Part shown: piece after piece, positions 7,471-28,772 of the stretch
How positions within the stretch are numbered: position 1 is the first letter of the stretch
Layout of the letters: each line of letters opens with the position of its first letter
From: Bacteroidales bacterium
GTDB lineage: Bacteria > Bacteroidota > Bacteroidia > Bacteroidales > GCA-2748055
Assembly (NCBI GenBank): GCA_023138875.1
Contig: JAGLOO010000026.1
Location: 1 to 44,904 of the forward strand
DNA length: 44,904 nucleotides
Direction of reading: 5' to 3'
Made by a program: the position numbers and the translations under genes
The notes under the pieces: generated by a model
What the model was told of the DNA's origin: nothing
Seen by the model: the letters and a program-made list of their open reading frames with translations, nothing else
Database searches by the model: none

Positions 7471-10400
7471 TTAATCGTTTCTGAGTGCAGCGTGGATGGT
7501 TTTCTCTTTCAGTGCTGAGCTGGTGACAGTAAAGATCCACAGCCAGCCGTTAAGGATAAGGGCAAGCAGGATAACCAGGATGGTAATAATTGATGTATCC
7601 GTATTTGGGCTCAGAATGGATGGCAGGGTGGCAATAACGGCCGCAAGGAACCCTGTGCCGATGCCTCCCTGAAGCAGGAACATATACTCTTTCACAATAA
7701 GTCTCCGTATGCTTTTCCTGCTGTAACCCACTGCCTTCAGTAATGCAATCTCCTGCCTGCGCTCCAGCATGCTCCTGGACAGAACAACCACCAGTCCAAA
7801 TGTTCCAAGTAATAGTCCCAGGGCCCCCAACACAAGGAAGATGGAGAGATACGTATTGGTGACAGAATTAAATTCTGCAAGACGGGTGGCACTCATTTGC
7901 ATGTCCCAGCCAAAGTCACGCATGCCCCGGTTCAGTTCCGTGCGGATCAGGGCTGTATCAGCCACCTCTCCATCTATCAGAAAGATATGAGTCCCGCTGC
8001 TTTCGGGAAACTGTTCCAGGAACCTGTCATTGGAAATGATCACGTTACCCTGGAAGATAGAGGGGGCCAGTCCGCCGATCAATAAAAGTTCCATAATCCC
8101 CCCATTGGAGTTTATATAGCGGAGTGTATCTCCCACTTTTAATCCTAGTCCCCATTGGATCACCGTTTCATCAGCAATGGCCGGAATAAGCCCCCCTGGT
8201 AATTCATTCTGAAGTGACATCCACGGTTGATCCACATCCAGGTATGGGGTCCGGGTTACAAATGAGTTCCTTCCGTCCAGCATACCGGGATCCACTCCCA
8301 GCACCTGTGGATTGATAACTTTATTCAGATTCAGACAACTGGCATCATCCCCCGCAGCCTTTCGCAACTGTACAAATGAGGTTTCACTTTCCAGTCCGAA
8401 TTCAAATCTTATTTTCGGGTCATTAAGGTTCTGGAGCACCGGTAGTGTGGATTCTGCAAAATATAGAAAGCCTCCTGTTCCGCTATTGGGATCTTCTGCA
8501 TTTTGAAAAAGATCTTTGCGGTTACTGCCTGTGGAGATAACCAGGAAAGTTCCAATTGCAAAAAGGATCACGATACTCATGCTCCGGGTCCGGTTCCGCA
8601 TTGCATTCCTTCGACTGAGAATTTTCAGATGAAAACCATAAACACTCTTCTGTTTTACCCCCCCCAGGTACCAGGCAAAAAAGAAAATGGAGGAGAGTAG
8701 TAATAACCCGCCAGCTGCGAAGAAAATGGATGTATTGACCACTTCCCCGCTGATCAGCTGGGAAATTATAAGGGCAATGGCGGCCAAACCGGAAATACCT
8801 GAAACTATTGCCGGAACGCCCCGGCGCATTCCCGGGGAGTTTAATCCGGACTGAAGTTTAAACCTGCCTGCCACCCTTCTCAGGAATCTGTTCAGCGGGA
8901 AAAAGAGTGTAAGAAAAGAGACTCCCATGATAACAGCAAAGCCGGTAATCAGGGTATCCATACGAATATGGATCTCAAGCATTTCCGTCCGCACCACATC
9001 CATCCAGACACCGTTCAGTGCATGAAATACACCTCTGTTATAAAATATGGCGAGGAACTGACCCAACACAGCACCTGCAAGAGCAACAAGCATTCCCTCC
9101 CATAGCATGATCCGGCGGATGATCTTTACCGGAATACCAACAACAGCGAGGGTGCGCATCTGTTCCTCCCTGCTTTCAAGGTTAAGCAGGAAAAGCAGAA
9201 TTGTCAGAATGACACTTGCAAGCAACAGGAAGAAACTGAGCCCGCCAAAGAGCTGACTGAAGTCCACACCTTCACCCGCAGCTGTGTGGCCCAGCTCCAT
9301 AACAGGTTCCAGTGTAAAACCGAGCACCCGCGGATCAAACCTGTCCAATATCTCCTTTCTCAGCTCTTCCTGATCGGTTTCCAGGGCTGAATAACGAAAT
9401 CCTGTAAAGGTACCGAACCGGTTTTTCCATAATTCTTTTCCCGTGGAGAGCGCAATAAAAGCTTTAGGTGTTCCTTTGAAACGTTTCCAGTAGTCCTCAT
9501 CAATATCCCGGATACTTTCCAGTTTAATGGGTACACCCGTCTCCCAGTCCCTGCAATTCCCTGCATCAGATAGTCCGGGCAGGTCGGGCATCAGGTTTAC
9601 ATCATTAAATATCCCCTCCATGGGAACTACGGACTTCACTATAAAGGATGTGATCTCCTCGCTTAATTCCCTGAGCGGACCCACTACAAAATATTTTACA
9701 TGTATGGTATCTCCCTCTACAGCAGAAAGATCCCGGGACAACCAGGTATTGATAATGATCTCATCCGGCTGCATTGTGTGATCAGGTAGTGTGGAGATAA
9801 AGGAATAAGGAGTCGTATTTCCGGCCGACTGCATTGCATTAACAAAATAGGTCAGGATGCCACTCTGAAAACCTGTTGCTTTTTCCAGCGGATCAATAAG
9901 TACGTCGTCAAAAAAGACCCTTTCACTGATGATCTCAATGGTCTGAAGTTCATCTATAACCCTTGATCTCAATCCTGCATCATCCAGTGTAAAGTTCTCC
10001 CTGATGGCATTCCATATGGCCTGTTCGCTTTGGTCAGTTCCATCACGCAGCAGCAATGCATTGGATCTGTCATCGAATTCCATCAGATCCGCAAGCCTTT
10101 GTGATGAAATAAAAACATTGAATGGAGCCGTTTGTGATACCTTCAGGTTAAATCTCCCCAGGTGATCGGCATCAGAAATCTCCTTAATACTCACCCTGAG
10201 CGATACCATGCTTTCTGCATCCGATACAAAGGGTGCATTAAGGGGAATCAGACTGGCTCTTTTAATCCCCAGTACAATTTCCTCTCCTTTCGAAACACCC
10301 AGCCGGTTGGCCAGGTTCTGACTGATGATCACACTATCGCCCGCCAGGTTTTCATAATAATGATTCAAACCAGCCACGCGGTCAAACGATTCATCCACCC

Positions 10401-10728
10401 CAACGATCTGTATATTGTTGATCCGTTTTTGTCCCCCACCGGCAACTCCCATTCCTTCAAGCAGGAGAATGGATGAGACCGGCAGATCCAGCTCAGCACC
10501 TACTTTCTCACCCAGTGAGCGTGTAAAATAGCGGTCACCCGCCTTCAACACATGGCTCACCTCACCCAACCGGCGATCTACGATACGGTTCAGGCTGTAT
10601 TCCACCGAATTACCTACAATAAGCGCCCCTGTGAGCACAGCAGCGCTTATTGCAATCCCCAGGGAAAGTAAAAAATTCCTTTTCCAATAAAATACAAGAT
10701 TATTCAATATGAGCCGGGAGACTTTCAT
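7471..10728 (-). CDS. FtsX/MacB-type ABC transporter permease, double-length
   Basis: This 1085-residue permease has an N-terminal membrane segment (about 17-40), a long extracytoplasmic MacB_PCD-like domain, three helices near 500-625 forming the first FtsX core, a mid-protein helix pair, a second periplasmic domain and a final three-helix FtsX core (about 965-1075, with the typical RRQEIALLKAVGYSRKSIRR). This duplicated layout is that of large lipoprotein- or precursor-handling permeases. It lies 11 nt downstream of its ATPase and is the last gene of the 16-gene operon. MacB/Lol-type systems use ATP for mechanotransmission in the periplasm rather than classical substrate import; the substrate here is unknown. 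Confidence 0.9.
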   Translation of the reverse strand: MKVSRLILNNLVFYWKRNFLLSLGIAISAAVLTGALIVGNSVEYSLNRIVDRRLGEVSHVLKAGDRYFTRSLGEKVGAELDLPVSSILLLEGMGVAGGGQKRINNIQIVGVDESFDRVAGLNHYYENLAGDSVIISQNLANRLGVSKGEEIVLGIKRASLIPLNAPFVSDAESMVSLRVSIKEISDADHLGRFNLKVSQTAPFNVFISSQRLADLMEFDDRSNALLLRDGTDQSEQAIWNAIRENFTLDDAGLRSRVIDELQTIEIISERVFFDDVLIDPLEKATGFQSGILTYFVNAMQSAGNTTPYSFISTLPDHTMQPDEIIINTWLSRDLSAVEGDTIHVKYFVVGPLRELSEEITSFIVKSVVPMEGIFNDVNLMPDLPGLSDAGNCRDWETGVPIKLESIRDIDEDYWKRFKGTPKAFIALSTGKELWKNRFGTFTGFRYSALETDQEELRKEILDRFDPRVLGFTLEPVMELGHTAAGEGVDFSQLFGGLSFFLLLASVILTILLFLLNLESREEQMRTLAVVGIPVKIIRRIMLWEGMLVALAGAVLGQFLAIFYNRGVFHALNGVWMDVVRTEMLEIHIRMDTLITGFAVIMGVSFLTLFFPLNRFLRRVAGRFKLQSGLNSPGMRRGVPAIVSGISGLAAIALIISQLISGEVVNTSIFFAAGGLLLLSSIFFFAWYLGGVKQKSVYGFHLKILSRRNAMRNRTRSMSIVILFAIGTFLVISTGSNRKDLFQNAEDPNSGTGGFLYFAESTLPVLQNLNDPKIRFEFGLESETSFVQLRKAAGDDASCLNLNKVINPQVLGVDPGMLDGRNSFVTRTPYLDVDQPWMSLQNELPGGLIPAIADETVIQWGLGLKVGDTLRYINSNGGIMELLLIGGLAPSIFQGNVIISNDRFLEQFPESSGTHIFLIDGEVADTALIRTELNRGMRDFGWDMQMSATRLAEFNSVTNTYLSIFLVLGALGLLLGTFGLVVVLSRSMLERRQEIALLKAVGYSRKSIRRLIVKEYMFLLQGGIGTGFLAAVIATLPSILSPNTDTSIITILVILLALILNGWLWIFTVTSSALKEKTIHAALRND

Positions 10729-10739
10729 GGGATGGTAAA

Positions 10740-11423
10740 TTAATTCCGGGTAATTTTTCCTTCCCGTATTTCGTAGGTTTGTCCCATTTGTCCGGCCAGG
10801 TCCTGAGAATGAGTCACCACCAGAAGTGTAAGTCCATCGTTCTTGTTGAGATCGATGAGCAAGTCTGACATTTTTTTCACATTGTCCCTGTCAAGTGCTC
10901 CCGTGGGTTCATCTGCAAGCAGAAGTGAAGGCCGGTTGATCATGGCCCTGACAACAGCAGCTCGCTGGCACTCCCCTCCCGACAGTTTCCCCGGCAGTTT
11001 ATCCCTGTGATCCCAGATCCCCACCCGGTTCAACAGGTGTTCTGCCCATTCAAGCTTTTCATTGCGAGCAGCCCTGTCGCGGATCATCAGGGTCGGGATC
11101 AACACATTTTCCATCACTGTGCACTGGGGCAGGAGGTGGTGAAACTGAAACACAAAGCCGATTCTTTGATTCCTGAAGTTATCCATCTCCTTCCGGGAAA
11201 GGGAAGTGATATTCTCACCCCGGAATACAACCGATCCGGCATCAGGATGATCCAGTGCCCCGATCAGGTTCAGTAGTGTGGTTTTCCCTGAGCCGGAAGG
11301 GCCCAGAATAGCAATGCGTTCTCCCTCGCTGACCTGCAGGGAAAGATCATCAAGTACCTTCCGGTATGTCTGGTCGGCCGGATTCCCGAATCCTTTGTGG
11401 ATATTCTCAAGTTGTAACAGCAT
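10740..11423 (-). CDS. ABC transporter ATP-binding protein, LolD/MacB type
   Basis: This 227-residue ATPase has Walker A GPSGSGKTT (about 40-48), the Q-loop region VFQFHHLLPQ, signature LSGGECQRAAVVRAM, Walker B LLLADEPTGALD and H-loop VVTHSQDLA. The sequence is closest in style to LolD/MacB ATPases that partner FtsX-fold permeases, and its partner is the next gene. The signature reads GGECQR where GGQQQR or GGEQQR is commoner. The glycosyltransferase gene ends 20 nt upstream. Confidence 0.93.
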   Translation of the reverse strand: MLLQLENIHKGFGNPADQTYRKVLDDLSLQVSEGERIAILGPSGSGKTTLLNLIGALDHPDAGSVVFRGENITSLSRKEMDNFRNQRIGFVFQFHHLLPQCTVMENVLIPTLMIRDRAARNEKLEWAEHLLNRVGIWDHRDKLPGKLSGGECQRAAVVRAMINRPSLLLADEPTGALDRDNVKKMSDLLIDLNKNDGLTLLVVTHSQDLAGQMGQTYEIREGKITRN

Positions 11424-11443
11424 ATGTAAGTTTAAATCTGAAG

Positions 11444-12757
11444 CTAATCTTGCTCACTGAGCACCTCTATTCCCAGCGCTTCATTGTATACAGTAATCAT
11501 CTCTTCTGCCTGTAACCTGATATGAAAATGTTTCTCCACTCCCTCTCTCCCGGCCCTGCTCAGACGGTCCAGTTCAGCCGGATCGGACAATAATTTTTCA
11601 AGCAATTCTGATAGTTTCTGCGGATCGTTTGGTTCAAAGGTGATCCCGCCGCCAGCTGTTTCAATAATTTCAGGGAAGGCGCCCAGGGCAGGCTGTACCA
11701 CAGGAACTCCCGATACCATACACTCCAGCAGGTATATACCGAACGCTTCCCCGTTACGAACCGGTACTGAGACAACAGTCACTTTTTCCAGGAAATCCCT
11801 CAATCCTTCTTCCTCAAAATCATCGTGAAACTCCACGTATTCAGCGATTCCTTCTTCCCTTATCTTTCTCCTTATTTCGGATAAAAACTTCCGGTCGTCC
11901 CCTGTGGATCCTCCTGTAAGGACCAGATTCACATCTTCAAAAGCGGATTTCTGTTTTAAAATAATAAATGCATCAATGAGGATATCAAATCCGTTTCCGT
12001 AGCACATTCTGGAGACGAATCCAATATTCCTTCCCTTTTCACCAACAGGCTTAAAGATGTAGTCATCCGGATCCACCCCAATATGCACACTTTTCAGCTT
12101 GGTGTCAGGAATGTCCATTTTCCCCTTCATAACATCGGCATAATAGTCACTTACCGAGATAAAAGCACTTACATGTTCAGCCTTTTTTGACATAAGTTTC
12201 CATACACTCTCCCTGGCGCTGGGTTTCATCACGTCCACCCAAACATCTTCGTCCTGTAAAGAGCAAATCACAGGCACATGCATCCGTTCGGAAAGCCGGT
12301 GAGCCAGTCCCAGTAAAAGTGCGTTTGAAAGGTGGATCACATCGGGATCACAATTCTCCACGATCCAGTCCACCATCCGTTCCAGCTCATCTCGCTGCTG
12401 ACCTTCCTCACCAAGCAGCATGGAGACGGTCATCTCCTCCAACCCTTTGGCCCTGGTAGATCCGGCAAACTTAGAGGCCAGCTTGAGCATGGGCTTGGAA
12501 TTCAATAATTTATCGATCCATTCAGGTGCTTTCCTGAATATGGGGAACAGTTGCTTGAGATAAATACTGATGGCCCCGTAAAATACCGGGATCTCCCTGC
12601 TCAGGTCATGTTCATCTGCAAACAAAGGCAGGTACATGGGCAACTTCACCACCTGGTGACCGGATTTCCGAAGGGCTTCCACATATTTTGAATCCCTGAG
12701 ACAGTTCCCGCAATAAAAGCTTCCCCCCGATCCGGGGATAATGTGCATGATTTTCAT
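11444..12757 (-). CDS. GT4-family glycosyltransferase
   Basis: The frame is open to 12862, but the ATG at 12755-12757 (MKIMHIIPGSGGSFYCGNC) fits the GT-B fold start and lies 4 nt after the preceding stop, giving 437 residues. The N-terminal domain has the glycine loop PGSGGSFYCGNCLRD. The C-terminal nucleotide-sugar domain has NIGFVSRMCYGNGFDILIDA and the E-x7-E motif in EAFGIYLLE. It is cytoplasmic and probably transfers a sugar from a nucleotide donor to a lipid or protein acceptor; neither is identifiable. The cysteine-bearing N-terminal motif is unusual for GT4 enzymes. Confidence 0.88.
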   Translation of the reverse strand: MKIMHIIPGSGGSFYCGNCLRDSKYVEALRKSGHQVVKLPMYLPLFADEHDLSREIPVFYGAISIYLKQLFPIFRKAPEWIDKLLNSKPMLKLASKFAGSTRAKGLEEMTVSMLLGEEGQQRDELERMVDWIVENCDPDVIHLSNALLLGLAHRLSERMHVPVICSLQDEDVWVDVMKPSARESVWKLMSKKAEHVSAFISVSDYYADVMKGKMDIPDTKLKSVHIGVDPDDYIFKPVGEKGRNIGFVSRMCYGNGFDILIDAFIILKQKSAFEDVNLVLTGGSTGDDRKFLSEIRRKIREEGIAEYVEFHDDFEEEGLRDFLEKVTVVSVPVRNGEAFGIYLLECMVSGVPVVQPALGAFPEIIETAGGGITFEPNDPQKLSELLEKLLSDPAELDRLSRAGREGVEKHFHIRLQAEEMITVYNEALGIEVLSEQD

Positions 12758-12761
12758 ATTC

Positions 12762-13880
12762 CTATTTTTTTCCAAAACAATATAACCTGCCGTCGTCTCC
12801 TGCAACATAGAACCGGTGATCCACCACGGCGGGATTGGCATGCACCGGTGTCCCCAGTTCATAGGTCCACAAAGGCTTACCCGTCTTGATATCCAACAGG
12901 AACAGGTCCCCCCTCATATTGGCTGTAAGCACCCTGTTCCGGATCACTACCGGCGAAGCATCCACCCTGCCGCCGGTATTGTATTTCCAAACCAACTCAC
13001 CGCTCGTTTTGTTCAGGCAATACATGAATTTATCGCGGTTCCCGATATAAACATGTTCCCTGTAAACAGCCGGAGATCCGAGAAAAGGCAGGTTGGCCTC
13101 TTTGTTTTCAAATACCCAGCTGATTGTCTGACCCTCCAGGTCCACCGAAGAGAAACGACCGTCATAATCCCCAACCAGTGCATGATGACCGTCAATGCAG
13201 GCCGAACTGGCCACAAAAGTAGAGATCTCCATGCTGGCAGTTGACTTACCACTGGAAACATCCACCAGGTGAATGTAGCCATCGCAACCTCCGAATACAG
13301 CCTTTCCTTCGTACAGGGCGCAAGCCCCATTGATGAAATTATCAGTTTCATATTTCCACAATCCTTCACCCGTTTCCGCATCTACACCATGGAGATAGTA
13401 GTCATAGCTACCCACCAGTATCACTTTTTTATTTCCGGCTTCATGAAAGGCCGGTGATCCCATGATCTGGTTTTCAGTTTTGTAGGTCCATTTGATGTTT
13501 CCGGTTTTCAAATCAATGGCATAAAGGGTGCCATCCAGGTTCCCTGCATATACGATTCCACCCACTATGAGCGCCGGTGCTTCAATGCTGTTCTCGGTGA
13601 CAATTTTCCATTGAAGGGTCCCATCGGTCTTGATACCATACAGGTTGCCTTTGACCGTACCAACCACAATGATCCCGTCACATACCACAGGTGCGGCCTT
13701 GATGGCATCACCTGTCTTGAAGCTCCACAGCAGGACTGGCTGATCGGGAATGGTAGCCCGACTCACACCCGTTAACCTGGAATCTCCCCTGAAATTGCTC
13801 CAGCAGTCACCCGTCTGGGCCAGCGTTACGGTCCAGGATAATACACCCAGAAATGCGAAAAGCAAGATCGTTGATTTCAT
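12762..13880 (-). CDS. Exported PQQ-like beta-propeller protein
   Basis: An ATG at 13878-13880 (MKSTILLFAFLGVLSWT) starts a signal peptide ending near LAQ; the frame extends ten codons further but without a better start. The 372-residue protein then shows about seven repeats of the PQQ_2/BamB type, e.g. NLYGIKTDGTLQWK, TLYAIDLKTGNIKWTYKT, YLHGVDAETGEGLWKYET and YCLNKTSGELVWKYNT. I see no quinoprotein catalytic Asp/Glu or vicinal disulfide, so PQQ binding should not be assumed. It lies 4 nt before the glycosyltransferase gene and 45 nt after the FAD protein gene. Confidence 0.87.
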   Translation of the reverse strand: MKSTILLFAFLGVLSWTVTLAQTGDCWSNFRGDSRLTGVSRATIPDQPVLLWSFKTGDAIKAAPVVCDGIIVVGTVKGNLYGIKTDGTLQWKIVTENSIEAPALIVGGIVYAGNLDGTLYAIDLKTGNIKWTYKTENQIMGSPAFHEAGNKKVILVGSYDYYLHGVDAETGEGLWKYETDNFINGACALYEGKAVFGGCDGYIHLVDVSSGKSTASMEISTFVASSACIDGHHALVGDYDGRFSSVDLEGQTISWVFENKEANLPFLGSPAVYREHVYIGNRDKFMYCLNKTSGELVWKYNTGGRVDASPVVIRNRVLTANMRGDLFLLDIKTGKPLWTYELGTPVHANPAVVDHRFYVAGDDGRLYCFGKK

Positions 13881-13925
13881 ATTGGGTTTTATATAATAAT
13901 GTATTCTCAAAGGCTGTATGTTGCT

Positions 13926-15479
13926 CTATTTTAATGACAAGGCACCGGTGGGGCAAGAAGTAACTACTTCATCAGCAGCTATTTTCAAACCGTTCCTCAG
14001 CGTTTCATTGAACGGGATCCCGATTACTACATCAAAACCCCTGCCAATGAACGTGAGGCCGAAATCCTCCTTATACTTCTCCGTAATCCGGACACAGATA
14101 CCACACTTGATACACTTGGAAGGTTCATAGATCACCCTGTCATGCTGGTCCAGCTTCCTGCACAACAACCGTTCCTCAGATCTAAACCTTTTCTGGTCGG
14201 CATGGTATTCATCTGAATAGGCACGTAGTTTACAGCTTTGCAGATCCCGGCAATCGCAATGCAAACAACGCCTGGCTTCTTCCATCACCTGTTCCGCACT
14301 AAAGCCCCTGGCCGCCACTTCCGGTTCCAACCTCACACCCTCTTTCGATTCCTTCAGGTATTCAGCATATTCACCGGGCAATAGTTTTCCAAAGCGTGAA
14401 TTGAATATGAATTTTTCTCCTGAAACCGGTTTCTTCGCAAGGAACTGATCAACACTGAATGCAACTTCTTTTCCCTGTCCAAGCACCCGGATGGCCATTT
14501 TTGAAGGTTTCAGTGCACTTCCCACCACGAATACGTTTGAATCACCTATTCTGTAAGTGCGCCCTTCAGTCTCCACTCCTTTCGAATGCATGGGGAGTCC
14601 CCACTCCGACACTCCGCTTTCACCCTTTCCTACAGCCACCACCACTGCATCACAGGATCGGGTCAGCTCCATAAACCCTTTTGCATCCACACTGGTGTTC
14701 AGCTTGAATGCAACTCCGGTCTGTCCGATCAGGCTAATCTCATGCTGAAGCACATCGGCAGGAAGCTCCTCTGTGGAAACCTCCTTTAACAGGCTTCCTC
14801 CTGCCTTCCTGTTTCGATCTAAAATGGTGCAATTGTGCCCTTTCAATGCCAGGTGATATGCAGCGGCAAGACCCGCAGGCCCTGCCCCGATAATGGTTAC
14901 CTGCTTACCGGTATCCGGTTCATTCTCAGGAATCCATTGTGCGTCGGACCCGATATCACAATCGCCGGCAAACCTTTTTAGCAGGCAGATGGAGATGGGT
15001 TCATCGATTGATTTCCTTCTGCAGGCCCCTTCACAGGGTGCCGGGCAGATCCTTCCAAGTACAGAAGGTAAGGCAATATCTTTTTTGACGACTTTGAGGG
15101 CCTCAAGAAATTTCCCTTCAGCCAGAAGCCGATTCATCAGGGGAATATCCATATGGGCCGGACAGGTAATCTGACAGGGTGCCTCACAATCTCCCACATG
15201 TTCGCTAAGCAACAGCTCAAGGGCTGTTTTCCGGGCCTCCTGGACCTCCTCATCCATGGAGATGATATCCATGCCCTCCTCCGCTTTTAATGAACAGGAA
15301 GGAATGATCGTCCCCGTTGTTTTGTCTTTTACCACACATACCATGCAGGAAGTAAAATGCTCCGCATCCTTCAGGTAACACATGGAGGGTACCTCCGTTC
15401 CCTCCCCTCTAATGACATCAATCAGAACAGATCCGATCTCTGCTTCCACCTCCCTGTTATCGATCTTCAGTTTAACCAT
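13926..15479 (-). CDS. GltD/NuoG-like FAD and Fe-S electron-transfer protein lacking the NAD(P)H domain
   Basis: This 517-residue protein has several modules in order. An N-terminal [2Fe-2S] ferredoxin has Cys 34, 45, 48 and 62 (C-x10-C-x2-C-x13-C). A GltD-type Fe-S helical domain has HVGDCEAPCQITCP and LGRICPAPCEGACRR. An FAD-binding Rossmann fold has IIGAGPAGLAAA (~195). A Cys-rich link has CLHCDCRDLQSC. The C-terminal ferredoxin shows CIKCGIC and a distant CP. In GltD and NfnB a second Rossmann fold for NAD(P)H interrupts the FAD domain; here the FAD domain spans only ~160 residues and that insert is missing. The C-terminal ferredoxin also keeps Cys for one cluster, not two. It resembles the StnC-type subunit of Stn transhydrogenases and pairs with the NuoEF fusion upstream (14-nt gap). 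Confidence 0.85.
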   Translation of the reverse strand: MVKLKIDNREVEAEIGSVLIDVIRGEGTEVPSMCYLKDAEHFTSCMVCVVKDKTTGTIIPSCSLKAEEGMDIISMDEEVQEARKTALELLLSEHVGDCEAPCQITCPAHMDIPLMNRLLAEGKFLEALKVVKKDIALPSVLGRICPAPCEGACRRKSIDEPISICLLKRFAGDCDIGSDAQWIPENEPDTGKQVTIIGAGPAGLAAAYHLALKGHNCTILDRNRKAGGSLLKEVSTEELPADVLQHEISLIGQTGVAFKLNTSVDAKGFMELTRSCDAVVVAVGKGESGVSEWGLPMHSKGVETEGRTYRIGDSNVFVVGSALKPSKMAIRVLGQGKEVAFSVDQFLAKKPVSGEKFIFNSRFGKLLPGEYAEYLKESKEGVRLEPEVAARGFSAEQVMEEARRCLHCDCRDLQSCKLRAYSDEYHADQKRFRSEERLLCRKLDQHDRVIYEPSKCIKCGICVRITEKYKEDFGLTFIGRGFDVVIGIPFNETLRNGLKIAADEVVTSCPTGALSLK

Positions 15480-19791: not shown

Positions 19792-21081
19792 TTACTTGCC
19801 ACGGAGCGGCCTTTCGACTGGACAGTAATCCATACATCTGCCACAGCTAAAACAATCTCCCTTATGAGGTTCGTAGTCCTCCCGCCGTCGGAACACCACC
19901 TGGTTCATCAGTGTAATACCAAGGACCAGGCCAATAAATCCTCCCAGTGCCCAGCCACCCTTCTTGAACTTACTCCGGATCACTACCGCTTCTTCAACCA
20001 GCTGTTCAAATGATTTACCGGCCTCAAGGAATGCCTGGATATCCAGGTTTGCTTCATCCTCCTTCAATTCCGGATTGGTGATGATCAATTCGGCCAGGTA
20101 AACATCGGGATGCACCCTGCTCAAATATATATGAGAGCGGGAACCTATCCATCCACCCAGCAGTGTAAGAAGGGGGATCAATCCAATATAAAGAATAAAC
20201 CTTCTCAGGTTTTTTCTGGAAACCTCAGGGATCCTGTACTCCTGTTCCACGGGCTTTTCGATGGTATCAAATGGACAGGAGTCTTTGCAAAGTTTGCACT
20301 TGATACATGCTGAGGGGGTTATGGTCATATGCCACTTTGAAAACTTTGACATCCAGCTCAGCAATACACCATACGGACAGAACACCCGGCAGTAGGGCCT
20401 GGCATAAAACATGCCCAGAAGGAGGAAGGTTATCCCCAGGAAGATCATCAGGAAAGGGCCATCCATTCGGAATATCCCCACAAATGGATCGTAGCGGCAG
20501 ATGATGAAGTCACTCCCCGTGGCAGCCAGGAGCACCGCAAGCCCCAGGTAAATTACAGGAATGAATCCCAGGGTTTTCCGTATCCAGCTGGGAAGTGAAA
20601 TGGGATGGATCACCAGCAGGTCCTGTATGGCACCAAGCGGACAGGCTGCCGCACAGAAGGTCCGCCCGAAGAAGAGGGCAAACAGAAGCGGCAGCAGAAA
20701 GAACAATAGTGCAGTGATTGAGATGGCATAGGTGGGATCGAATATGGACAGGGCCACATTCTGAATGGCTCCTATTGAACAGATACAACCATCGCGGTAA
20801 AAGCCAAAATATACCAGTGAAAAGATGGATATCCAGAGCAATCCCCGTCTGGAGCGCTTGCGGATGGCCAGCCAGGAAGCCAGTGAAAGTACAGCAAGCA
20901 ATACAGCTACATCGAAGTATTCAAGGGCAATGGACCTGGGTTCGGGAGTGGTGGGACTGGGCTGTACATACCCGGTCTCAAATTCAGGTTTCGGGAATCG
21001 CTGCTGGGCCTGCATGAAATTCCCCACCATAACCAGGAAAAGAAAAAATACAAATATGCGTGTTGGGATCTTTTTTATCAT
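19792..21081 (-). CDS. NosR/NapH-type polytopic membrane Fe-S protein
   Basis: The frame is open to 21177, but the ATG at 21079-21081 (MIKKIPTRIFVFFLFLVMVG), one base after the upstream stop, gives 429 residues and a sensible signal/anchor. There are about six further membrane helices, with the NosR/NapH/CcoG-type motifs FCAAACPLGA and CRVFCPYGV at helix ends. A [4Fe-4S] motif CIKCKLCKDSCP follows (~265). After a last pair of helices with a soluble segment comes a C-terminal CFSCGRCMDYCP. An extra motif, GCICSIGAIQNV near 100, adds two Cys. Such proteins move electrons between quinol or cytoplasmic donors and exported Fe-S partners. It lies directly between the exported ferredoxin and the tethered propeller. 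Confidence 0.9.
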   Translation of the reverse strand: MIKKIPTRIFVFFLFLVMVGNFMQAQQRFPKPEFETGYVQPSPTTPEPRSIALEYFDVAVLLAVLSLASWLAIRKRSRRGLLWISIFSLVYFGFYRDGCICSIGAIQNVALSIFDPTYAISITALLFFLLPLLFALFFGRTFCAAACPLGAIQDLLVIHPISLPSWIRKTLGFIPVIYLGLAVLLAATGSDFIICRYDPFVGIFRMDGPFLMIFLGITFLLLGMFYARPYCRVFCPYGVLLSWMSKFSKWHMTITPSACIKCKLCKDSCPFDTIEKPVEQEYRIPEVSRKNLRRFILYIGLIPLLTLLGGWIGSRSHIYLSRVHPDVYLAELIITNPELKEDEANLDIQAFLEAGKSFEQLVEEAVVIRSKFKKGGWALGGFIGLVLGITLMNQVVFRRREDYEPHKGDCFSCGRCMDYCPVERPLRGK

Positions 21082-21082
21082 A

Positions 21083-21658
21083 TCAGCCTTCCTCCCCACT
21101 TGTAAAGTCTCCCTTGATGATATAAGGCTTATCGGCCGGAACCCTGCTGATGGCATCCGAAGGACAGGTACTGGCAATGGAGCACTGGTTACAATTCAGA
21201 CAGAGGTCGTGGCGAATCTGCAGTTGAAATGATCCGTTCCCAAATGCAGAGCATCCCTTTACGCACTTGGCACAACCGATGCAGAGTTCTTCATCAATAA
21301 TATATTCAAAATATGGCTCCTCGATAAACTTGCGCTGAATGGCAGCCGTAGGACACAGCTGGTTCTCTGCCCCGGTCTCCAGTTTGGCCCCGGGTTTGAA
21401 ATAACCTCCGCACAGATCGCAATACCCACACAGGTCATAGGCATGGACGCACTTTACTGCCGAGGTGGCTTTCACACACTCCGTAGCACATCGGCCGCAC
21501 TGGGTGCACTTGAACGGATCGATCTGCCAGACATAATCCTTCCCGGTCGTCGACTGTGTCAGCGCAAATGCTCCTGTTCCAACTACAGTAAGGCCCAGGG
21601 TGATGCGAACTCCGTTGTTGATAAAATCGCGCCTGTTATATCCCTTATCCTTTTTCAT
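21083..21658 (-). CDS. Exported polyferredoxin with Tat-like signal
   Basis: This 191-residue protein begins MKKDKGYNRRDFINNGVRIT, with RRDF followed by a hydrophobic stretch, a likely Tat signal for pre-folded Fe-S proteins. Cys groups follow: CTQCGRCATEC, then CVHAYDLCGYCDLC with a later LCP, CIGCAKCVKGC, and CLNCNQCSIASTCP. These could hold about four [4Fe-4S] clusters. The layout is that of NapG/NrfC-type periplasmic or membrane-side electron carriers. It overlaps the small Cys protein gene upstream by 14 nt and is 1 nt from the NosR/NapH-like gene, so the two are probably made together. Confidence 0.9.
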   Translation of the reverse strand: MKKDKGYNRRDFINNGVRITLGLTVVGTGAFALTQSTTGKDYVWQIDPFKCTQCGRCATECVKATSAVKCVHAYDLCGYCDLCGGYFKPGAKLETGAENQLCPTAAIQRKFIEEPYFEYIIDEELCIGCAKCVKGCSAFGNGSFQLQIRHDLCLNCNQCSIASTCPSDAISRVPADKPYIIKGDFTSGEEG

Positions 21659-21848
21659 CTACACGTGCTTTATCGGCTTCAGGCAATGTACAGTTGTTCA
21701 GTTTCCTGCAATTCCTGCATTGAAAATCATCGAAACAGTCATCCTGCAAAGCAACCTGACGCCTCGAAAACAGGATCCCTGATATCACCGCAAGGGAGGC
21801 CAGCAAGCCCCCTCTAAAAATTCGATTTATGAAATCTCTTCTATCCAT
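21645..21848 (-). CDS. Small Tat-motif, Cys-rich protein (67 residues)
   Basis: The ATG at 21846-21848 overlaps the NHL gene stop by 8 nt; a TTG at 21861-21863 is an alternative. The protein begins MDRRDFINRIFRGG, continues with a hydrophobic core, and so has a Tat-like RRDF signal like the ferredoxin after it. The short mature part carries C-x5-C-x2-C-x5-C (DDCFDDFQCRNCRKLNNC), enough to bind one Fe-S cluster or a metal, then LPEADKAR. I do not recognise a named family. The overlap on both sides places it firmly within the electron-transfer part of the operon. Confidence 0.75.
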   Translation of the reverse strand: MDRRDFINRIFRGGLLASLAVISGILFSRRQVALQDDCFDDFQCRNCRKLNNCTLPEADKARVDEKG

Positions 21849-22809
21849 TTCCTTTAAGTTCAAAAACCCTCACTACATTCCTGTCAAAATCCAGGGCATA
21901 AACGATGTTCTGCTCATCCACACAAACTTCCGGAGCCTTACCCCCTTCCTTAAATTGGTTGGGCGAAGCCACCACACTAAGAAGTGTTCCCGACTGGTCA
22001 TAGATCTTAATCCTTACCATGCCCTTCTCGCTGGTAATGAACGATCCATCCTCCTTAACTGTGATTTCAGCAGGATTACAGCATCCCAGGAATCCCTCAA
22101 TATCATAGGAGGCATTTTGCCAGAATCCACGCATCTGCCCATCATCAGTATAATTCTCAATGGCATGTTTACCCGGGTTCACTACCCATAGTTCACCGTA
22201 GCTATTGACAACTACGTCAAAATTAGGACTGGGAATGATGAACCCATGCCCGGCTTCGGTAACTGCTTTCCCCTCAAAATCTCCCATGATCTCTCCTTCC
22301 CTGCTAAAAATCACCACCCTCCTGTTCCCCGCATCAGCAGCATAAATGCGGTTGTCTTTAATGGCCAGGGAAGTGATTACGGTACTTTCCCCCAGATCTG
22401 GCCATCGTTGCAACAATTTGCCCGACGTGTCGTACTTTGCTACATGGGTCAAATAACCGATGAATATATTGTCTCCATCGGTCTCAATGCACGTGGGATT
22501 GGGCAGGATCTCATACATTCCGACAGGTGAACCGTCAGGGGATATCACCACCAGCGAAGAATCCCCCACAAGGAACAACCTGTCATTATAATAACAGATT
22601 CCGGTGGCAGTGAGTGTTCCCAGCGAAAAGTTGCGTGTCTCTTTATGGGATATGAGATTTTCATCCACCTTCTTGTATTCGTCCACATCCAGGGCATATG
22701 GATTATCACCCCGGCGATCGGGCCGGTTATTCATGAAATCAATGACAATCACTCCTATGATCACCGCCAGGATCGCCAATACAACAACTGTCAGACTTCG
22801 CTTTTTCAT
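21841..22809 (-). CDS. Membrane-anchored NHL-repeat beta-propeller protein
   Basis: The ATG at 22807-22809 gives 322 residues, starting MKKRSLTVVVLAILAVIIGV, an uncleaved N-terminal anchor. The remainder has NHL-type blades, e.g. SLAIKDNRIYAADAGNRRVV and FVNPGKHAIENYTDDGQ-like repeats, and near the fifth blade a paired-cysteine motif GFLGCCNPAEI. The vicinal CC inside a propeller next to Fe-S partners is notable. It lies 27 nt downstream of a PQQ-like gene and overlaps the next gene by 8 nt. NHL propellers generally bind proteins or ligands; a specific role is not visible. Confidence 0.85.
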   Translation of the reverse strand: MKKRSLTVVVLAILAVIIGVIVIDFMNNRPDRRGDNPYALDVDEYKKVDENLISHKETRNFSLGTLTATGICYYNDRLFLVGDSSLVVISPDGSPVGMYEILPNPTCIETDGDNIFIGYLTHVAKYDTSGKLLQRWPDLGESTVITSLAIKDNRIYAADAGNRRVVIFSREGEIMGDFEGKAVTEAGHGFIIPSPNFDVVVNSYGELWVVNPGKHAIENYTDDGQMRGFWQNASYDIEGFLGCCNPAEITVKEDGSFITSEKGMVRIKIYDQSGTLLSVVASPNQFKEGGKAPEVCVDEQNIVYALDFDRNVVRVFELKGNG

Positions 22810-22836
22810 CAACCTTTTGTTTCTATTACATCTGCA

Positions 22837-24264: not shown

Positions 24265-24266
24265 AA

Positions 24267-25127
24267 CTACAATGCAATATCGTAAACGAACAGCACTTCA
24301 CCATGCCTGATAAAGAGTTTCTTATCGTAGATGGACATATGCGCCCAGTGCGGGCCGGAACCCCCATCTATTTTGAAAGAGCTGATAACCCTGAAGCCTT
24401 CAGGCGTCGGTTCCACAAGTCCCACATGTCCCCGTTTCTCCTCGTACACATAAAGGAGTCCGTCTGCATAGATGATGGAACCTTTGTTGTACCATTTCTC
24501 TTCATACATTACTTTTCCGGTTTCCCACAACAACGAACCATCCTTTTTATCCAATGCCACCACTGCTGTCCGGTTGCCCACCGGAGAAGAGATCACTGCA
24601 TCCCCTGTCAGCAACAGGGACTCCGCCATCCCCCAGATATGAAACTCACCCCCGTATTCCTCATGGGTATTCACTTTCCAAATGATATCCCCCGATTCAA
24701 TTTCCATACAAACGACTGTCCCCAGGCCACCCATGATGTATAAGCGATCATCTTCAATGGTCGGGGTACTCCTGGTTTCCGGAAATGATTGATTCCAGGC
24801 ATTACCGCAAACTGTTTCCCACTTGACGTTCCCCTTCGTATCAAGTTTGGTTACCACATCCCGGCTGTCCCTCCTGCCGCTAATGTAGACCATACCGTTA
24901 TGAAGTATGGGTGTGGAATAGCCATTGCCCAGCCCCTCTTTTTTTAAAATGAGTTCAGGGTCCCCTTCAGGCCACTGTTTTAACAAACCGGTATCATGAT
25001 ATTTTCCATCCCGTTCAGGTCCCCTCCACTGTGTATCCTGTGCCTGAACCGCAGCGCACTGAGCAACAATGAGCAGCAAAAAGGCAACACCATTCCCTAA
25101 TATTCTATATCCTAACTTCTTCAACAT
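24267..25127 (-). CDS. PQQ-like beta-propeller paralog, blade-deleted but in frame
   Basis: ATGs at 25143-25145 and 25125-25127 are both possible; the second (MLKKLGYRILGNG) matches the start of the next paralog and gives 286 residues. A signal peptide ends at AVQAQ and the WRGPERDGKYHDTGLLKQWP domain start follows. Compared with the 423-residue neighbour at 25156-26427, about 135 residues are missing between VVALDKKDGSLLWETGK and YNKGSIIYADGLLYVYEEKRG, joining two blade-type repeats. The reading frame survives. It may be a smaller functional propeller or a decaying copy. Confidence 0.75.
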   Translation of the reverse strand: MLKKLGYRILGNGVAFLLLIVAQCAAVQAQDTQWRGPERDGKYHDTGLLKQWPEGDPELILKKEGLGNGYSTPILHNGMVYISGRRDSRDVVTKLDTKGNVKWETVCGNAWNQSFPETRSTPTIEDDRLYIMGGLGTVVCMEIESGDIIWKVNTHEEYGGEFHIWGMAESLLLTGDAVISSPVGNRTAVVALDKKDGSLLWETGKVMYEEKWYNKGSIIYADGLLYVYEEKRGHVGLVEPTPEGFRVISSFKIDGGSGPHWAHMSIYDKKLFIRHGEVLFVYDIAL

Positions 25128-25155
25128 ACCTAACTTCCCTATCATATCTAACTCA

Positions 25156-26427
25156 CTAACTTTTAACTTTATAACTAATTAACAATTCCCCATGCCGGAC
25201 CAGCAGCATTCCGTTATATATTGCAGGCCTCGCCCAGTGGGGTCCATTGCCATCCTTCACACGAAAAGAACTGATTACTTTGAATCCATCAGGATCGGCC
25301 TTCACCAGGGCCATATTTCCCCGCTTTTCTTCGTAACAGTAAAGCATCCCATCGGCATAGATGATGGGGCCCTTATTATGCCATTTTGCCAACCAGATGA
25401 TCTCCCCCGTGTGCCAGTTCAAACAGACCCATTTGCCCGATTGTCGCCCTGTAAAATTTGAACCATAAACGTGACCATCCACCACAACCACACCATGGTT
25501 CTGGTTATCGAAAGTGTGGTCAATGTACTTTTCTGTGACCGACCGGCCATCGGGAGCGATCTCCAGCATGACAGATTCCTTATCCCAGCCGCTGGTGATC
25601 CACAGGCAACTATCAAGGTAGACTGGCGTATTGGACTGGATGGTGGTATTCTCGTCCTTCTCATCCAGGATGTTGTAATGATAGGTCCACAGGATCTCTC
25701 CATTTTCGGGATCCACACCAAGGGTATGGGTTCGGGTAGCTGTAATGATATATTTTTGCCCACAATGCTCAATAAGAGCCGGCGACAAGTTGGAGCGTTG
25801 TGCTCCCATAGATTCTGATTTCCAGACCAGTTCTCCGGTCATCTTATCCAGCGCGATTACTGTTGTACTTTCTCCTGCAGGTGTGGCGATTACTTTATCA
25901 TCCACCAGTAACAGGGATTCTGAGACACCGAACATATCCCAGTGACTGTTATACTTCTCATGGATATCCACACTCCAGATCTCTGCTCCGGTTTTTGCAT
26001 TGAAGCATACCATATTGTCCATACCTGTGAGCACATAAACCCTGTCTCCATCCACTGCAGGTGTACAACGGGATTCCGGGAAAGACTGGTTCCAGGACCG
26101 GCCGAATGGTTTTTGCCAGAGAATGTTCCCTTCAAGATCCATTGCCGTCACGTATTCAATGGTATCCTTGATCCCGGTCACATAGATCATATCGCGGGTG
26201 GCAACAGCCGAGGAAAAACCTTTCCCAATCCCTTCTGTTGTAAAAAGCAATTCGGGTCCTTCTTCCGGCCATTCCCTGAGCAATAACAGATCTGGAAATT
26301 TTCCATCCCGGTCCGGCCCACGCCACTGAGCATCTTGCGCATATACTGCACCACAATGAGCAAAAAAGAACAGCAGAACGACAATAGCCCGTTCCAGCTG
26401 CCCATATCCTGACTTTCTTTCTAACAT
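25156..26427 (-). CDS. Exported PQQ-like beta-propeller paralog, full length
   Basis: The ATG at 26425-26427 (MLERKSGYGQLERAIVVLL) is preferred over the one at 26452-26454, because it aligns with its paralog and does not overlap the restored end of the upstream gene. The 423-residue protein has a signal peptide ending at AVYAQ, then WRGPDRDGKFPDLLLLREWP and a full set of blades, e.g. MVCFNAKTGAEIWSVDIH, VIALDKMTGELVWKSE and LGVDPENGEILWTYHYN. It ends with the shared tail in which YADGMLYCYEEKRG precedes MALVKADPDGF and HWARPAIYNGMLLVRHGE. No catalytic quinoprotein residues were recognised. Confidence 0.85.
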   Translation of the reverse strand: MLERKSGYGQLERAIVVLLFFFAHCGAVYAQDAQWRGPDRDGKFPDLLLLREWPEEGPELLFTTEGIGKGFSSAVATRDMIYVTGIKDTIEYVTAMDLEGNILWQKPFGRSWNQSFPESRCTPAVDGDRVYVLTGMDNMVCFNAKTGAEIWSVDIHEKYNSHWDMFGVSESLLLVDDKVIATPAGESTTVIALDKMTGELVWKSESMGAQRSNLSPALIEHCGQKYIITATRTHTLGVDPENGEILWTYHYNILDEKDENTTIQSNTPVYLDSCLWITSGWDKESVMLEIAPDGRSVTEKYIDHTFDNQNHGVVVVDGHVYGSNFTGRQSGKWVCLNWHTGEIIWLAKWHNKGPIIYADGMLYCYEEKRGNMALVKADPDGFKVISSFRVKDGNGPHWARPAIYNGMLLVRHGELLISYKVKS

Positions 26428-26437
26428 TTCTAACTGC

Positions 26438-27537
26438 CTAATCTTTAACCTCATATGCTATAAGCACATTCCCATGTCTCAGATAGAGAACTCCCTCATG
26501 GATCGTGGGATACGCAATGTGGAGACCGGAACCCTGGGTGACTTTTGTCTGGCTGACAACCTCGAATCCGGCCGGATCCGGTTTAACCAATGCCAGTTCA
26601 CCCTCTTGTCCTCACCAAAGGATTCATAAATATATCCGTCATACAGAACTGCTCCATACCGGTAATCACACACCTGGTTCTCCCAGACAAGCGATACGGA
26701 ACTTCCATCCTCGTTTAGTTTTAGTTTTCCTCCACCCTTCTCATGACCGCTCATATAGTAGAGTTCTCCTTCCTGATAAAGAGGTGTACTGGAATGCACC
26801 GACCATTCCCATGGACGGTCCTCTGACCAGAGCAATTCACCCGTGGAAGCATCCAGTCCAAGCAAATGCGACTTGGTGTAGGTGGACAGTATCTTTCTTC
26901 CGTTATGTTCAAACAACAGCGGTGTGCAGTAAGCAGATACTTCACCCTCCCCCTTGCAGCTCCATATGAGGTTACCGGAATGCCTGTCCAGTGCAACCAC
27001 ATTGTACTCTACCCCCCCGGGGGTGGCATAGATTATGTTTTCGTCCACAACAGGTGTTTCGTTTAAACCCCATCGAATATTTTTTCCATCAAATGCAGTG
27101 AACAAATCTTTGCTCCATAGAACGGATCCGTCCTCGTTGTTGAAACAGATCAGTTGCCCCCTGCCGCTCTCCAGGTAGATCTTCTTACCAACCACTACCG
27201 GTGATCCCCTTGTCCCTTTATAACTGCCGGTAAATTCAATTCCATACGGGACATTATAAACCAGATCTCCCTGTAAATTGAATTTAAACAGGTAGCCTGT
27301 GCTGTCGATCATGCCCGTGGTAAACAAGAATCCGTTCTGTATAACTGCAGAGGAGTATCCGATTCCCAGGCTGTCAAATGTCCATAAGATCTCGGGGCCA
27401 CCGGTAGGCCACTCTTTCAGTAAACCGGTTTCCTGGTAGATCCCGTTCCCTGAGGGTCCCCTCCAGCGCGTGGGTTCCTGTGTCTGACAACTGAACAAAA
27501 TCCCTGAGACCAGAAAAATTAAAATATTCTTGCTCAT
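26438..27537 (-). pseudogene. PQQ-like lipoprotein paralog with internal deletion and frameshift
   Basis: The ATG is at 27535-27537, with a lipoprotein signal (FLVSGILFSC). It aligns well with the 404-residue paralog at 27558-28772 up to GAVLYDGYIYESFGEDKR. There about 40 residues are missing and the frame slips. The nominal ORF ends at 26479 with an unrelated tail, but one extra G in the run at 26601-26603 (plus-strand C3) restores GELALVKPDPAGFEVVSQTK, the family tail and a stop at 26438-26440. The first ~315 residues could still make a truncated lipoprotein. The restored stop sits 10 nt before the next start. Confidence 0.8.
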
Positions 27538-27557
27538 GACCGTGGGCTAAAAAATTG

Positions 27558-28772
27558 TCATTTGACTTTGTACGCTATCAGTGCCTTCCCATGCCTCAGA
27601 TAGAGAACTCCATCATGGATCATGGTGTGAGCCCAGTGTTGTTCGGAACCAAGCGCTACCTTTGTCTTGCTGACCACCTCGAATCCGGCAGGATCTGCTT
27701 TTACAAGGACAAGTTCACCCTTTTCACTATAACAATAAAGCATTCCGTCGGCATAGATCACATTCCCTTTGCCAATAGCACTGGAAGCATATATTTCCTT
27801 ACCGGTTTTCCATTCAAGGCATCTCCATTGGCGGTTGTCATCCCCTGATCCATACAGGTACCCGTCCACCAGAACTGCCCCTCCCATGCGGCTATCCAGC
27901 TTCCTGTTCTTCCATATTACGGTGACCGAACTTCCGTCATTATTCAATCTGAGTTTTCCGCCACCCTGGCCATAACCACTGAAATAATAGAGTTCCCCGT
28001 CACGATAAATGGGTGTATTGGCATGAATGGAATACTTGTTGGGCTGACTCTGTGACCATAGGAGTTTACCAGTAGCAGCATCCAGTCCCATGAAATGTGA
28101 AGCAGTATGTGTGGCCAGTATTTTCCTTCCATTGTGTTCAAATAGAAGGGGAGTACAGTAGGCCGAAAGCTCGCCCTTCCCCTTGCTGGTCCAGATCAGT
28201 TTGCCTGTATGCCTGTCCAGTGCAACCACATTGTTGTTCTTTCCGCCGGGAGTGGCATATACCACATCCCCGTCTACCACCACCGTTTCATTAACACCCC
28301 ACCGGATATTCGTTCCATCCAGGTCCCCGAACAGCTCCTTACTCCACAGGATCTTACCGTCAGAATTATTGAAACATACCAGTTTTCCGTTACCACTCTC
28401 CACGTATATCTTATCTCCAACAACCACAGGGGTTCCCCTTGTACCATACCAGCTTTCTGTAAACTCGGGCCCGTAGGGTTTCTTATAGATAAGTTTTCCA
28501 TCGAGGCTGAATTTAAAAAGGAAGCCTGTGCTATTTATCATTCCGGTAGTAAAAAGGTATCCACTCTGTACCGATGCAGAAGAGTGACCCTGTCCAAGTT
28601 CTTCAAAGGTCCAGATAATATCAGGGCCTTTTGCAGGCCATTGCTTTAATAATCCCGTTTCAGCGTATATTCCATCACCAGAAGAGCCCCTCCATCGTGT
28701 TGGTTCCTGTGCCCGGCAACTTAGAACAATCCATACCACAAGCATCATTATTGCTATTCTTTTCATCTTCAT
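27558..28772 (-). CDS. PQQ-like beta-propeller lipoprotein, first gene of the operon
   Basis: This 404-residue protein (ATG at 28770-28772) has a lipoprotein-type signal with the lipobox Cys at VLSC (about residue 19), followed by AQEPTRWRGSSGDGIYAETG. Blades include LVCFNNSDGKILWSKELF, VALDRHTGKLIWTSKGK and MGLDAATGKLLWSQSQ, and the C-terminal tail ends HWAHTMIHDGVLYLRHGK. As a lipoprotein it probably sits in the outer or inner membrane leaflet facing the periplasm. It is the intact member of the lipoprotein pair and the promoter-proximal gene of the 16-gene run. A promoter on the minus strand was not clearly recognised. Confidence 0.86.
   Translation of the reverse strand: MKMKRIAIMMLVVWIVLSCRAQEPTRWRGSSGDGIYAETGLLKQWPAKGPDIIWTFEELGQGHSSASVQSGYLFTTGMINSTGFLFKFSLDGKLIYKKPYGPEFTESWYGTRGTPVVVGDKIYVESGNGKLVCFNNSDGKILWSKELFGDLDGTNIRWGVNETVVVDGDVVYATPGGKNNNVVALDRHTGKLIWTSKGKGELSAYCTPLLFEHNGRKILATHTASHFMGLDAATGKLLWSQSQPNKYSIHANTPIYRDGELYYFSGYGQGGGKLRLNNDGSSVTVIWKNRKLDSRMGGAVLVDGYLYGSGDDNRQWRCLEWKTGKEIYASSAIGKGNVIYADGMLYCYSEKGELVLVKADPAGFEVVSKTKVALGSEQHWAHTMIHDGVLYLRHGKALIAYKVK

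Follow-up and report, generated by a model that had tools for sequence, protein, structure and literature searches.

A conserved operon of Bacteroidota predicted to connect a Bfu-like NADH core with periplasmic beta-propellers through a NapH-like membrane protein

Introduction

What kind of machine is encoded by an operon in which an NADH dehydrogenase-type iron-sulfur (Fe-S) protein, membrane Fe-S proteins, a series of beta-propellers and an ATP-binding cassette (ABC) exporter stand side by side? We addressed this question for sixteen genes on contig JAGLOO010000026.1 of the Bacteroidales assembly GCA_023138875.1, the 44,904 nucleotides of which (the window in the following) correspond to contig C19 of a 4.79 Mb genome that is 99.6% complete. 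The gene set is kept together in many uncultured and some cultured Bacteroidota, and we consider it fairly probable that it encodes an inner-membrane complex, in which a Bfu-type NADH(/ferredoxin) core is wired via a NapH/NapG-like conduit to periplasmic propellers.

Results

Organization of the operon

All sixteen open reading frames (ORFs) are located on the minus strand and run from position 28772 to 7471, with intergenic gaps of at most 46 nt (the largest between P6 and NuoEF) and with several overlapping neighbours; the ORF coordinates thus bear out the layout of a first-pass annotation, which had described sixteen genes in one direction with gaps of up to about 46 nt and several overlaps. 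Start codons were preferred according to the N-termini for the NapH-like protein (21081), GT4 (12757), P7 (13880, which leaves a gap of 45 nt after the FAD/Fe-S gene) and the small cysteine protein (21848, which gives the length of 67 residues already stated in that annotation). Its domain assignments likewise agree with Pfam and NCBIfam searches of the window proteins. In operon order, the genes are:

27558..28772, minus strand: P1, PQQ-like (BamB-type) beta-propeller with a lipoprotein-like signal (LSC, by eye); PQQ_2, E 1.6e-24
26479..27537, minus strand: P2, damaged P1 paralogue; 64.5% to P1 over 1-312, remainder out of frame
25156..26454, minus strand: P3, PQQ-like propeller with a signal-peptide-like N-terminus; PQQ_2, E 3e-25
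24267..25145, minus strand: P4, damaged P3 paralogue with an internal deletion of about 137 residues; comparison with P3
22837..24264, minus strand: P5, propeller with an N-terminal anchor; alignment, structure model and fold search
21841..22812, minus strand: NHL propeller with an N-terminal anchor and invariant C244-C245 (GCCNP); domain search and alignment
21645..21848, minus strand: 67-residue 4-Cys protein, C-x5-C-x2-C-x5-C, with an N-terminal hydrophobic segment; comparison with relatives
21083..21658, minus strand: PFd, Tat-type polyferredoxin with 16 Cys and four predicted [4Fe-4S] clusters; domain search and alignment
19792..21081, minus strand: NapH/NosR-like membrane Fe-S protein with 15 invariant Cys; Fer4_5, E 8.6e-13
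17883..19757, minus strand: P6, three predicted transmembrane helices and a BamB-like propeller; domain search and alignment
15494..17836, minus strand: NuoEF, fused BfuC-BfuB-like core (FMN domain, Fe-S ligand positions); domains, solved chains and alignment
13926..15479, minus strand: FAD/Fe-S protein, BfuA/StnC/NfnA-like, NADP domain absent; domains, solved chains and alignment
12762..13880, minus strand: P7, BamB-like propeller with a signal-peptide-like N-terminus; Beta-prop_ACSF4, E 8.9e-69, above cut-off
11444..12757, minus strand: GT4 glycosyltransferase with a conserved YCxNCLRD motif; domain search and alignment
10740..11423, minus strand: LolD/MacB-type ABC ATPase; Pfam/NCBIfam
7471..10728, minus strand: FtsX/MacB-type duplicated ABC permease; Pfam/NCBIfam

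Gene order and co-inheritance in relatives

Gene order was scored in 110 loci, which are distinct by marker sequence and to which some genomes contribute more than one locus, while three Stn-like loci and the loci of one later search lie outside this set. A gene was counted as a neighbour if no other core gene came before it on that strand and it lay no more than 4 kb away (inserts were tolerated); only loci offering 1.5 kb of room or more were used. By this measure, P5 was followed by the NHL gene in 81 of 84 loci, NHL by PFd in 88/88, PFd by the NapH-like gene in 89/89 and the latter by P6 in 83/84. Towards the end of the operon, the corresponding numbers were 78/78 for P6 and NuoEF, 68/71 for NuoEF and the FAD/Fe-S gene, 61/66 for the FAD/Fe-S gene and P7, 50/51 for P7 and GT4 (counting L152, where ABC genes intervene between the two), 26/29 for GT4 and the ATPase, and 13/15 for ATPase and permease. 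All eleven core genes are present in 20 of the 110 loci; many others end at contig edges. The median identity to the window is 59% for P5, 61% for GT4, 64% for the NapH-like protein, 67% for NuoEF and 68% for PFd, which is the slowest-evolving part of the core. The copy number of propellers of the P1-P4 type differs among relatives. The case for a conserved order rests on this recurrence in relatives.

Co-occurrence was followed by searching 149 relatives for P5, GT4 and the permease at E<=1e-50 and by counting the 118 good genomes among them, of which 28 carry P5, 25 GT4, 25 the permease and 23 an ortholog of the FAD/Fe-S protein. GT4 was found in 25 of the 28 P5-positive genomes and in none of the 90 P5-negative ones, and the same numbers were obtained for the permease (Fisher p ~1e-22 without correction for phylogeny). 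For the FAD/Fe-S protein, the search of the 149 relatives yielded 67 genomes at E<=1e-40, of which 33 were taken as ortholog holders; the remaining matches cover N-terminal regions of longer homologues, whose open frames span 1,083-1,268 residues. One of these long homologues, L068, resembles by eye a Stn/formate-dehydrogenase-like protein, and separate NuoE- and NuoF-type genes lie alongside at the three long-homologue loci that were fetched.

Parts of the set are also retained when they are dispersed. In G063, P1 and P5 are located on a different contig from the remaining genes, and in G111 the parts are spread over five contigs (C20, C112, C225, C1 and C245) and P5, P6 and P7 are each followed by non-core genes, yet this genome still holds P1, P5, NHL, PFd, the NapH-like gene, P6, NuoEF, the FAD/Fe-S gene, P7, GT4 and the permease. 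Such retention, as well as the permeases encoded elsewhere in three genomes (see Discussion), argues for a common function over mere linkage. From the neighbour order together with the co-occurrence we conclude that the genes form one conserved set, in support of the first-pass annotation. It had also named an observation that would speak against it, namely a free separation of the Fe-S block from the propeller/ABC block in relatives; we reject such a separation on account of the neighbour order and because in good genomes GT4 and the permease occur only with P5.

Passenger genes were seen within the core order of L087, L107, L118, L131 (after NuoEF) and others, and by eye they are SGNH-like, four-helix interval-type or nuclease-like. 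We set these inserts aside as functional clues, because they look unrelated and none is widespread (at most 8 loci in a group, named by eye). In L146, the ABC pair is located upstream and divergent of the cluster, still adjacent to it.

NuoEF resembles the core of electron-bifurcating enzymes

NuoEF consists of two thioredoxin-like [2Fe-2S] stretches, the FMN and 4Fe-4S domains of NuoF and a C-terminal dicluster ferredoxin (PF01257 twice, PF01512, PF10589 and PF14697 in Pfam), i.e. the domains of the BfuBC core that marks the Bfu family. Among solved chains, NfnB (9n5u) is the best match, before 8oh5_B (from Stn), 9bov_B and HydB. Non-bifurcating homologues are described as being without the B2-B5 clusters (PMC9304861, in part). 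All tabulated cysteines of three Stn-type BfuB rows are kept in 12 rows of the NuoEF family, one of them relocated, and over 85 aligned rows, some of them duplicated between collections, the cysteines are found in 85/85 except at position 646 (71/85). Of 76 distinct sequences, 9 have Gly instead of C646 together with Cys instead of G689, and these come without exception from genomes assigned to the genus of the window; the reverse applies to the other 67. This covarying, relocated cysteine (residues 646/689 of the protein encoded at 15494-17836) is a ligand of a B1/N3-type cluster, if our naming of individual clusters, which follows homology, is right.

Judged by these features, NuoEF is a putative fused Bfu-like (Stn/HydB-type) electron-bifurcating core. 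An ordinary NADH module of complex I was considered and rejected because of the extended Bfu-like form; accordingly, the earlier description as a NuoEF fusion oxidizing NADH holds for the NADH-type Fe-S core, but the protein exceeds a simple fusion of NuoE and NuoF. As the core is Bfu-like, reduced ferredoxin is, by analogy, probably a second donor beside NADH. In the genome of the window, C17 carries an Rnf-type cluster and C24 another pair, of the Rnf/Nqr type (probably Nqr), and on C32 an FeFe-hydrogenase gene lies next to NuoE/NuoF-type genes; the Rnf-type cluster and the hydrogenase gene would fit a ferredoxin economy.

The FAD/Fe-S protein has lost the NADP domain and in some relatives the FAD domain

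A BfuA-like subunit, the second mark of the Bfu family, adjoins NuoEF: the FAD/Fe-S protein matches 9bov_A, 9n5u_A (NfnA) and 8oh5_C. It is devoid of the NADP(H)-binding domain that characterizes the Nfn-Bfu/Stn transhydrogenases, since its alignment to the full-length homologue L068 jumps from residue 285 to 453 and thereby skips this domain, as does the alignment to 9bov. Consistently, the NADP-type motif GGGNxA is found in 0/84 ortholog rows (75 distinct, 323-558 residues) versus 3/3 long homologues. The members in L067, L152 and L153 (366, 323 and 350 residues) are also without the FAD domain, and their aligned Fe-S cysteines are kept; the proteins of L169 (327 residues) and L171 (340 residues), which are outside the alignment, are likewise short.

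An obligatory role of FAD as electron carrier is rejected by the three aligned members without the domain. Of the earlier suggestion that an FAD/Fe-S protein passes the electrons on, the Fe-S chain stands, whereas FAD does not seem to be required, and to judge from the alignment the BfuA-like subunit looks like one that is turning into a pure Fe-S wire with a dispensable FAD domain. In Stn, electrons pass from FAD to the Fe-S chain of the same subunit and on to B1 of StnB (PMC10482914, in part). With the far end of the chain lacking NADP, and in some members FAD, another partner is expected, and the NapH-like protein would be the obvious new one. In L173 (2448-5051), the FAD/Fe-S protein and P7 form a single frame of 867 residues across the signal-peptide-like segment of P7, which could reflect a fusion that spans the membrane or else a mistake in the assembly.

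Candidates for electron transfer across the membrane

Across 51 rows, which represent the window and 50 of the 74 loci available, the NapH-like protein has 15 invariant cysteines, namely two CxxxCP pairs, two ferredoxin-like sets and in addition C90, C92 and C186. Two CxxxCP motifs and two ferredoxin-like cysteine sets in a polytopic protein are characteristic of the NapH/MauN family; the three extra cysteines, presumably absent from NapH itself, would lie on the periplasmic side by hydropathy. The score of the NapH-like protein with the NapH/MauN model TIGR02163 is 42.1 of 213 bits and thus under the curated cut-off. No FMN-binding (NosR-type) domain was detected in the 16 operon proteins at E<=0.01, which revises the earlier label "NosR/NapH-like", and none of the 16 contains the c-type haem motif CxxCH.

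PFd retains its 16 cysteines in 101/101 rows and the twin arginines in at least 97% of the 101, and TatC is present in the genome of the window, both of which support its prediction as a Tat-type exported polyferredoxin. The spacing of the 4-Cys protein is x5 in the window and in 14 of 15 relatives and x4 in one; it may bind Fe-S, or possibly Zn. L058 and L062 encode it as a fusion with PFd (by eye), and in L166 the 4-Cys protein, PFd and the NapH-like protein form a single protein of 637 residues.

Predicted periplasmic propellers

Eight propellers were counted, in agreement with the first-pass annotation, which had considered one of them decayed; two, P2 and P4, look damaged. P2 matches P1 to residue ~312, from where the match continues in another frame, and P4 is missing about 137 internal residues compared to P3, at a difference in total length of 140. 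Signal peptides or anchors seen at the N-termini support the predicted location of the propellers outside the membrane. The structure model of P5 (pLDDT 90.8) is nearest to the folds of tetrathionate hydrolase and BamB, with PQQ dehydrogenases lower in the list. Its mean column identity is 64% over 41 rows (the window and 40 of 64 loci); for P6 the value is 52% over 31 rows (the window and 30 of 66 loci). P5 would be the best candidate for a substrate-binding subunit.

An NCBIfam scan, which covered P1, P5, P6, P7 and NHL, gave scores under the cut-offs. For the PQQ-dehydrogenase model TIGR03075, P1, P6 and P7 reached 48.6, 50.1 and 71.7 of 480 bits, with P5 and NHL not listed; for the BamB model TIGR03300, P1, P7, P6 and P5 reached 61.3, 130, 92 and 27.9 of 285.2 bits. 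Adjacent cysteines, which we take to be a feature of PQQ-dependent dehydrogenases, occur among the window propellers only in NHL, a different family, where C244-C245 is present in 96/96 rows. pqqC was found in 0/61 genomes, a weak negative given that the control also gave no match.

GT4 and the ABC exporter

In GT4, C40 and C43 of the motif YCxNCLRD are present in 57/57 rows. The ABC proteins do not reach the curated LolCDE cut-offs, with 240.5 of 307.75 bits for the ATPase (LolD) and 17.6 of 362.45 bits for the permease (LolC/E). GT4 and the LolD/FtsX-type exporter are probably part of the functional unit of the operon and would make or position a needed envelope component. On the glycosylated or lipid substrate suggested in the first-pass annotation, the results speak neither for nor against.

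Distribution and genomic surroundings

A scan of named genomes with the NapH profile retrieved at least 577 relatives, the best 80 of which are labelled Bacteroidota except for one Chlorobiota. Among the matches listed are isolates of Draconibacterium, Maribellus, Mariniphaga, Sunxiuqinia and Gaoshiqia, and their presence makes the system accessible to work with cultured strains. Of 393 genomes sampled from the order, 69 gave a match to PFd; two of these (G553 and G632) have a smaller paralogous set. In a phylum-wide sample of 395 genomes, the NapH-like protein was found at E<=1e-20 only in the window's own genome (1/395), which leaves no distant outgroup, and a plasmid search gave no match at E<=1e-20.

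In the smaller paralogous set of L167 and L168, PFd (37-39%) and the NapH-like protein (29-33%) have diverged and are located beside an NHL propeller of the GCCNP type and a lipoprotein with a conserved Cys, which by eye resembles a PhnD-type binding protein; these 5-kb contigs show no Bfu core.

Next to the operon, a divergent gene of 220 residues with a C-terminal helix-turn-helix match (29070-29732, plus strand) is a candidate regulator. A divergent ORF of 216-221 residues is located at or near the equivalent position in a dozen related loci, considering length and orientation only. The GC content is ~0.36 at 4001-8000, i.e. at the end of the operon and just downstream, and 0.45-0.51 along the operon (8001-32000). 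Promoter and terminator scans gave nothing informative.

Discussion

In the complex that we propose, cytosolic NADH, probably together with reduced ferredoxin, would be oxidized by NuoEF running in the confurcating direction, and the electrons would enter the Fe-S chain of the BfuA-like subunit. From there they might pass to the cytosolic clusters of the NapH-like protein, across the membrane and on to PFd and the 4-Cys protein, both of which may share a single chain with the NapH-like protein, and finally to an acceptor bound by the anchored propellers P5, NHL and P6, which would form a periplasmic platform. GT4 and the exporter would probably supply or place an envelope component for the complex. 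Gene content, its order, the co-occurrence, the conserved cysteines, the lost domains and the fusions are observations; the direction of the electrons, the use of ferredoxin, the topology, the assembly into a complex, the terminal reaction and the part played by GT4 and the ABC proteins are inferred. With NADH at ~-280 mV and ferredoxin at ~-500 mV (PMC9304861, Table 1, in part), an export of mid-potential electrons would be downhill. A more far-reaching version, which we regard as tentative and rather doubtful, is a new class of periplasmic reductase, with a NADH/ferredoxin-confurcating Bfu core, a quinone-independent NapH-polyferredoxin wire, catalytic propellers, and a dedicated glycosyltransferase and exporter making a substrate or cofactor.

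Several observations weigh against the proposed complex. The co-occurrence statistics ignore phylogeny, and some P5-positive good genomes are without a match to GT4 (G014, G042, G084) or to the permease (G014, G021, G036), while the incomplete genomes G004 and G043 carry GT4 and permease without a P5 match. The search with the FAD/Fe-S protein returned no ortholog from P5-positive G017, G021, G049, G084 and G116, although short orthologs do exist in G049 and G116 and the contig of G084 stops within NuoEF. As to gene order, 3 of 29 loci are without ABC genes after GT4 (L050, L052 and L110, whose genomes G024, G019 and G026 carry the permease elsewhere), P7 does not follow the FAD/Fe-S gene in 5 of 66, the ABC genes of L152 precede GT4, and L172 departs from the core order downstream of PFd. 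Furthermore, the operon encodes no reductase of a known kind, the model of the NapH-like protein is moderate (pLDDT 75.7) and gave no match at E<=0.001 in the fold search, NapH-like proteins are classically quinol-linked, so that menaquinone could be the real partner, and NapH-like gene clusters that include an alcohol oxidase, which would mean inward electron flow, are reported (PMC8238504, in part).

Three alternative explanations were considered. Electrons could run inwards, from a quinoprotein-like propeller oxidizing a periplasmic substrate to a Bfu core that splits them between NAD+ and ferredoxin, and the PQQ-like folds of the propellers, the alcohol oxidase genes in NapH-like clusters (PMC8238504, in part) and the reversibility ascribed to Bfu reactions (PMC9304861, in part) would fit; we nevertheless consider this unlikely, since the five scanned propellers stay under the PQQ-dehydrogenase cut-off, the only adjacent cysteines belong to a propeller of another family, and a donor near -400 mV would be required to reduce ferredoxin too, to which the lack of pqqC adds little. 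Even less likely, in our opinion, is a Bfu-type NADH/ferredoxin:menaquinone oxidoreductase with the NapH-like protein as quinone site and periplasmic proteins that merely stabilize or regulate it: the quinol linkage of NapH homologues (PMC8238504, PMC5449189, both in part) speaks for it, but the slow evolution of PFd and its fusion to the NapH-like protein in L166 point to electron flow beyond the membrane.

The operon could also serve mainly envelope assembly, with BamB-like propellers, GT4, a Lol-like exporter and a redox chain that powers the reductive modification of a lipid, glycan or disulfide. The folds nearest to the P5 model, the LolD/MacB type of the ABC proteins and the co-inheritance of GT4 and permease with P5 are in line with this possibility, which partly overlaps with the proposed complex, so that the likelihoods expressed here are not meant to add up to one; we judge it improbable as the main function, given that no substrate or envelope defect is known and that P1, P5, P6 and P7 score under the BamB cut-off.

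Comparison with known systems

A search of the literature, which was only partly surveyed, returned no title or abstract on this gene combination, in agreement with the earlier statement that no system with this set has been described. The known systems that come closest fall into four groups. With the Bfu family (HydABC, Nfn-Bfu/Stn, Nuo-Bfu and Mbh-Bfu; PMC9304861 and PMC10482914, in part) the operon shares the BfuBC core with its FMN domain and Fe-S cysteines and the BfuA-like subunit, whereas here BfuC and BfuB are fused and BfuA is without the NADP domain and sometimes without the FAD domain. The partners also differ from those of the Bfu types in section 5 of PMC9304861, being a membrane protein of the NapH type together with a polyferredoxin predicted to be periplasmic; the term "NapH" does not occur in its main text. 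That source lists 17 BfuB clades without obvious function and names Mbh-Bfu and the complex-I-like Nuo-Bfu as membrane-bound types (PMC9304861, in part). If the proposed complex is real, it would be a third way to couple a Bfu core to the membrane, besides these two, and an outward electron route that, judged from its genes, does without c-type haem and without a bound FMN domain.

The NapGH quinol dehydrogenase and the fused NapH-NapG polyferredoxin of MLMS-1 (PMC5449189, in part) likewise combine a membrane protein with CxxxCP and ferredoxin-type cysteines and a Tat-type four-cluster protein, and the natural fusion of the two recurs here in L166. In contrast to NapGH, a cytosolic NADH-type module lies alongside, and the membrane protein has three extra invariant cysteines, probably periplasmic. 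The flavinylated NapH-like systems (NosR, PceC; PMC8238504, in part) are similar in their Fer4_5 membrane protein, transmembrane electron transfer and modular partners, whereas they differ from the operon in their FMN-binding domain. Finally, BamB, PQQ dehydrogenases and tetrathionate hydrolase resemble the propellers in the fold of the P5 model and in the PQQ_2 blades of P1-P7, but the propellers scanned here score under the respective cut-offs, and P5, NHL and P6 are anchored at their N-termini.

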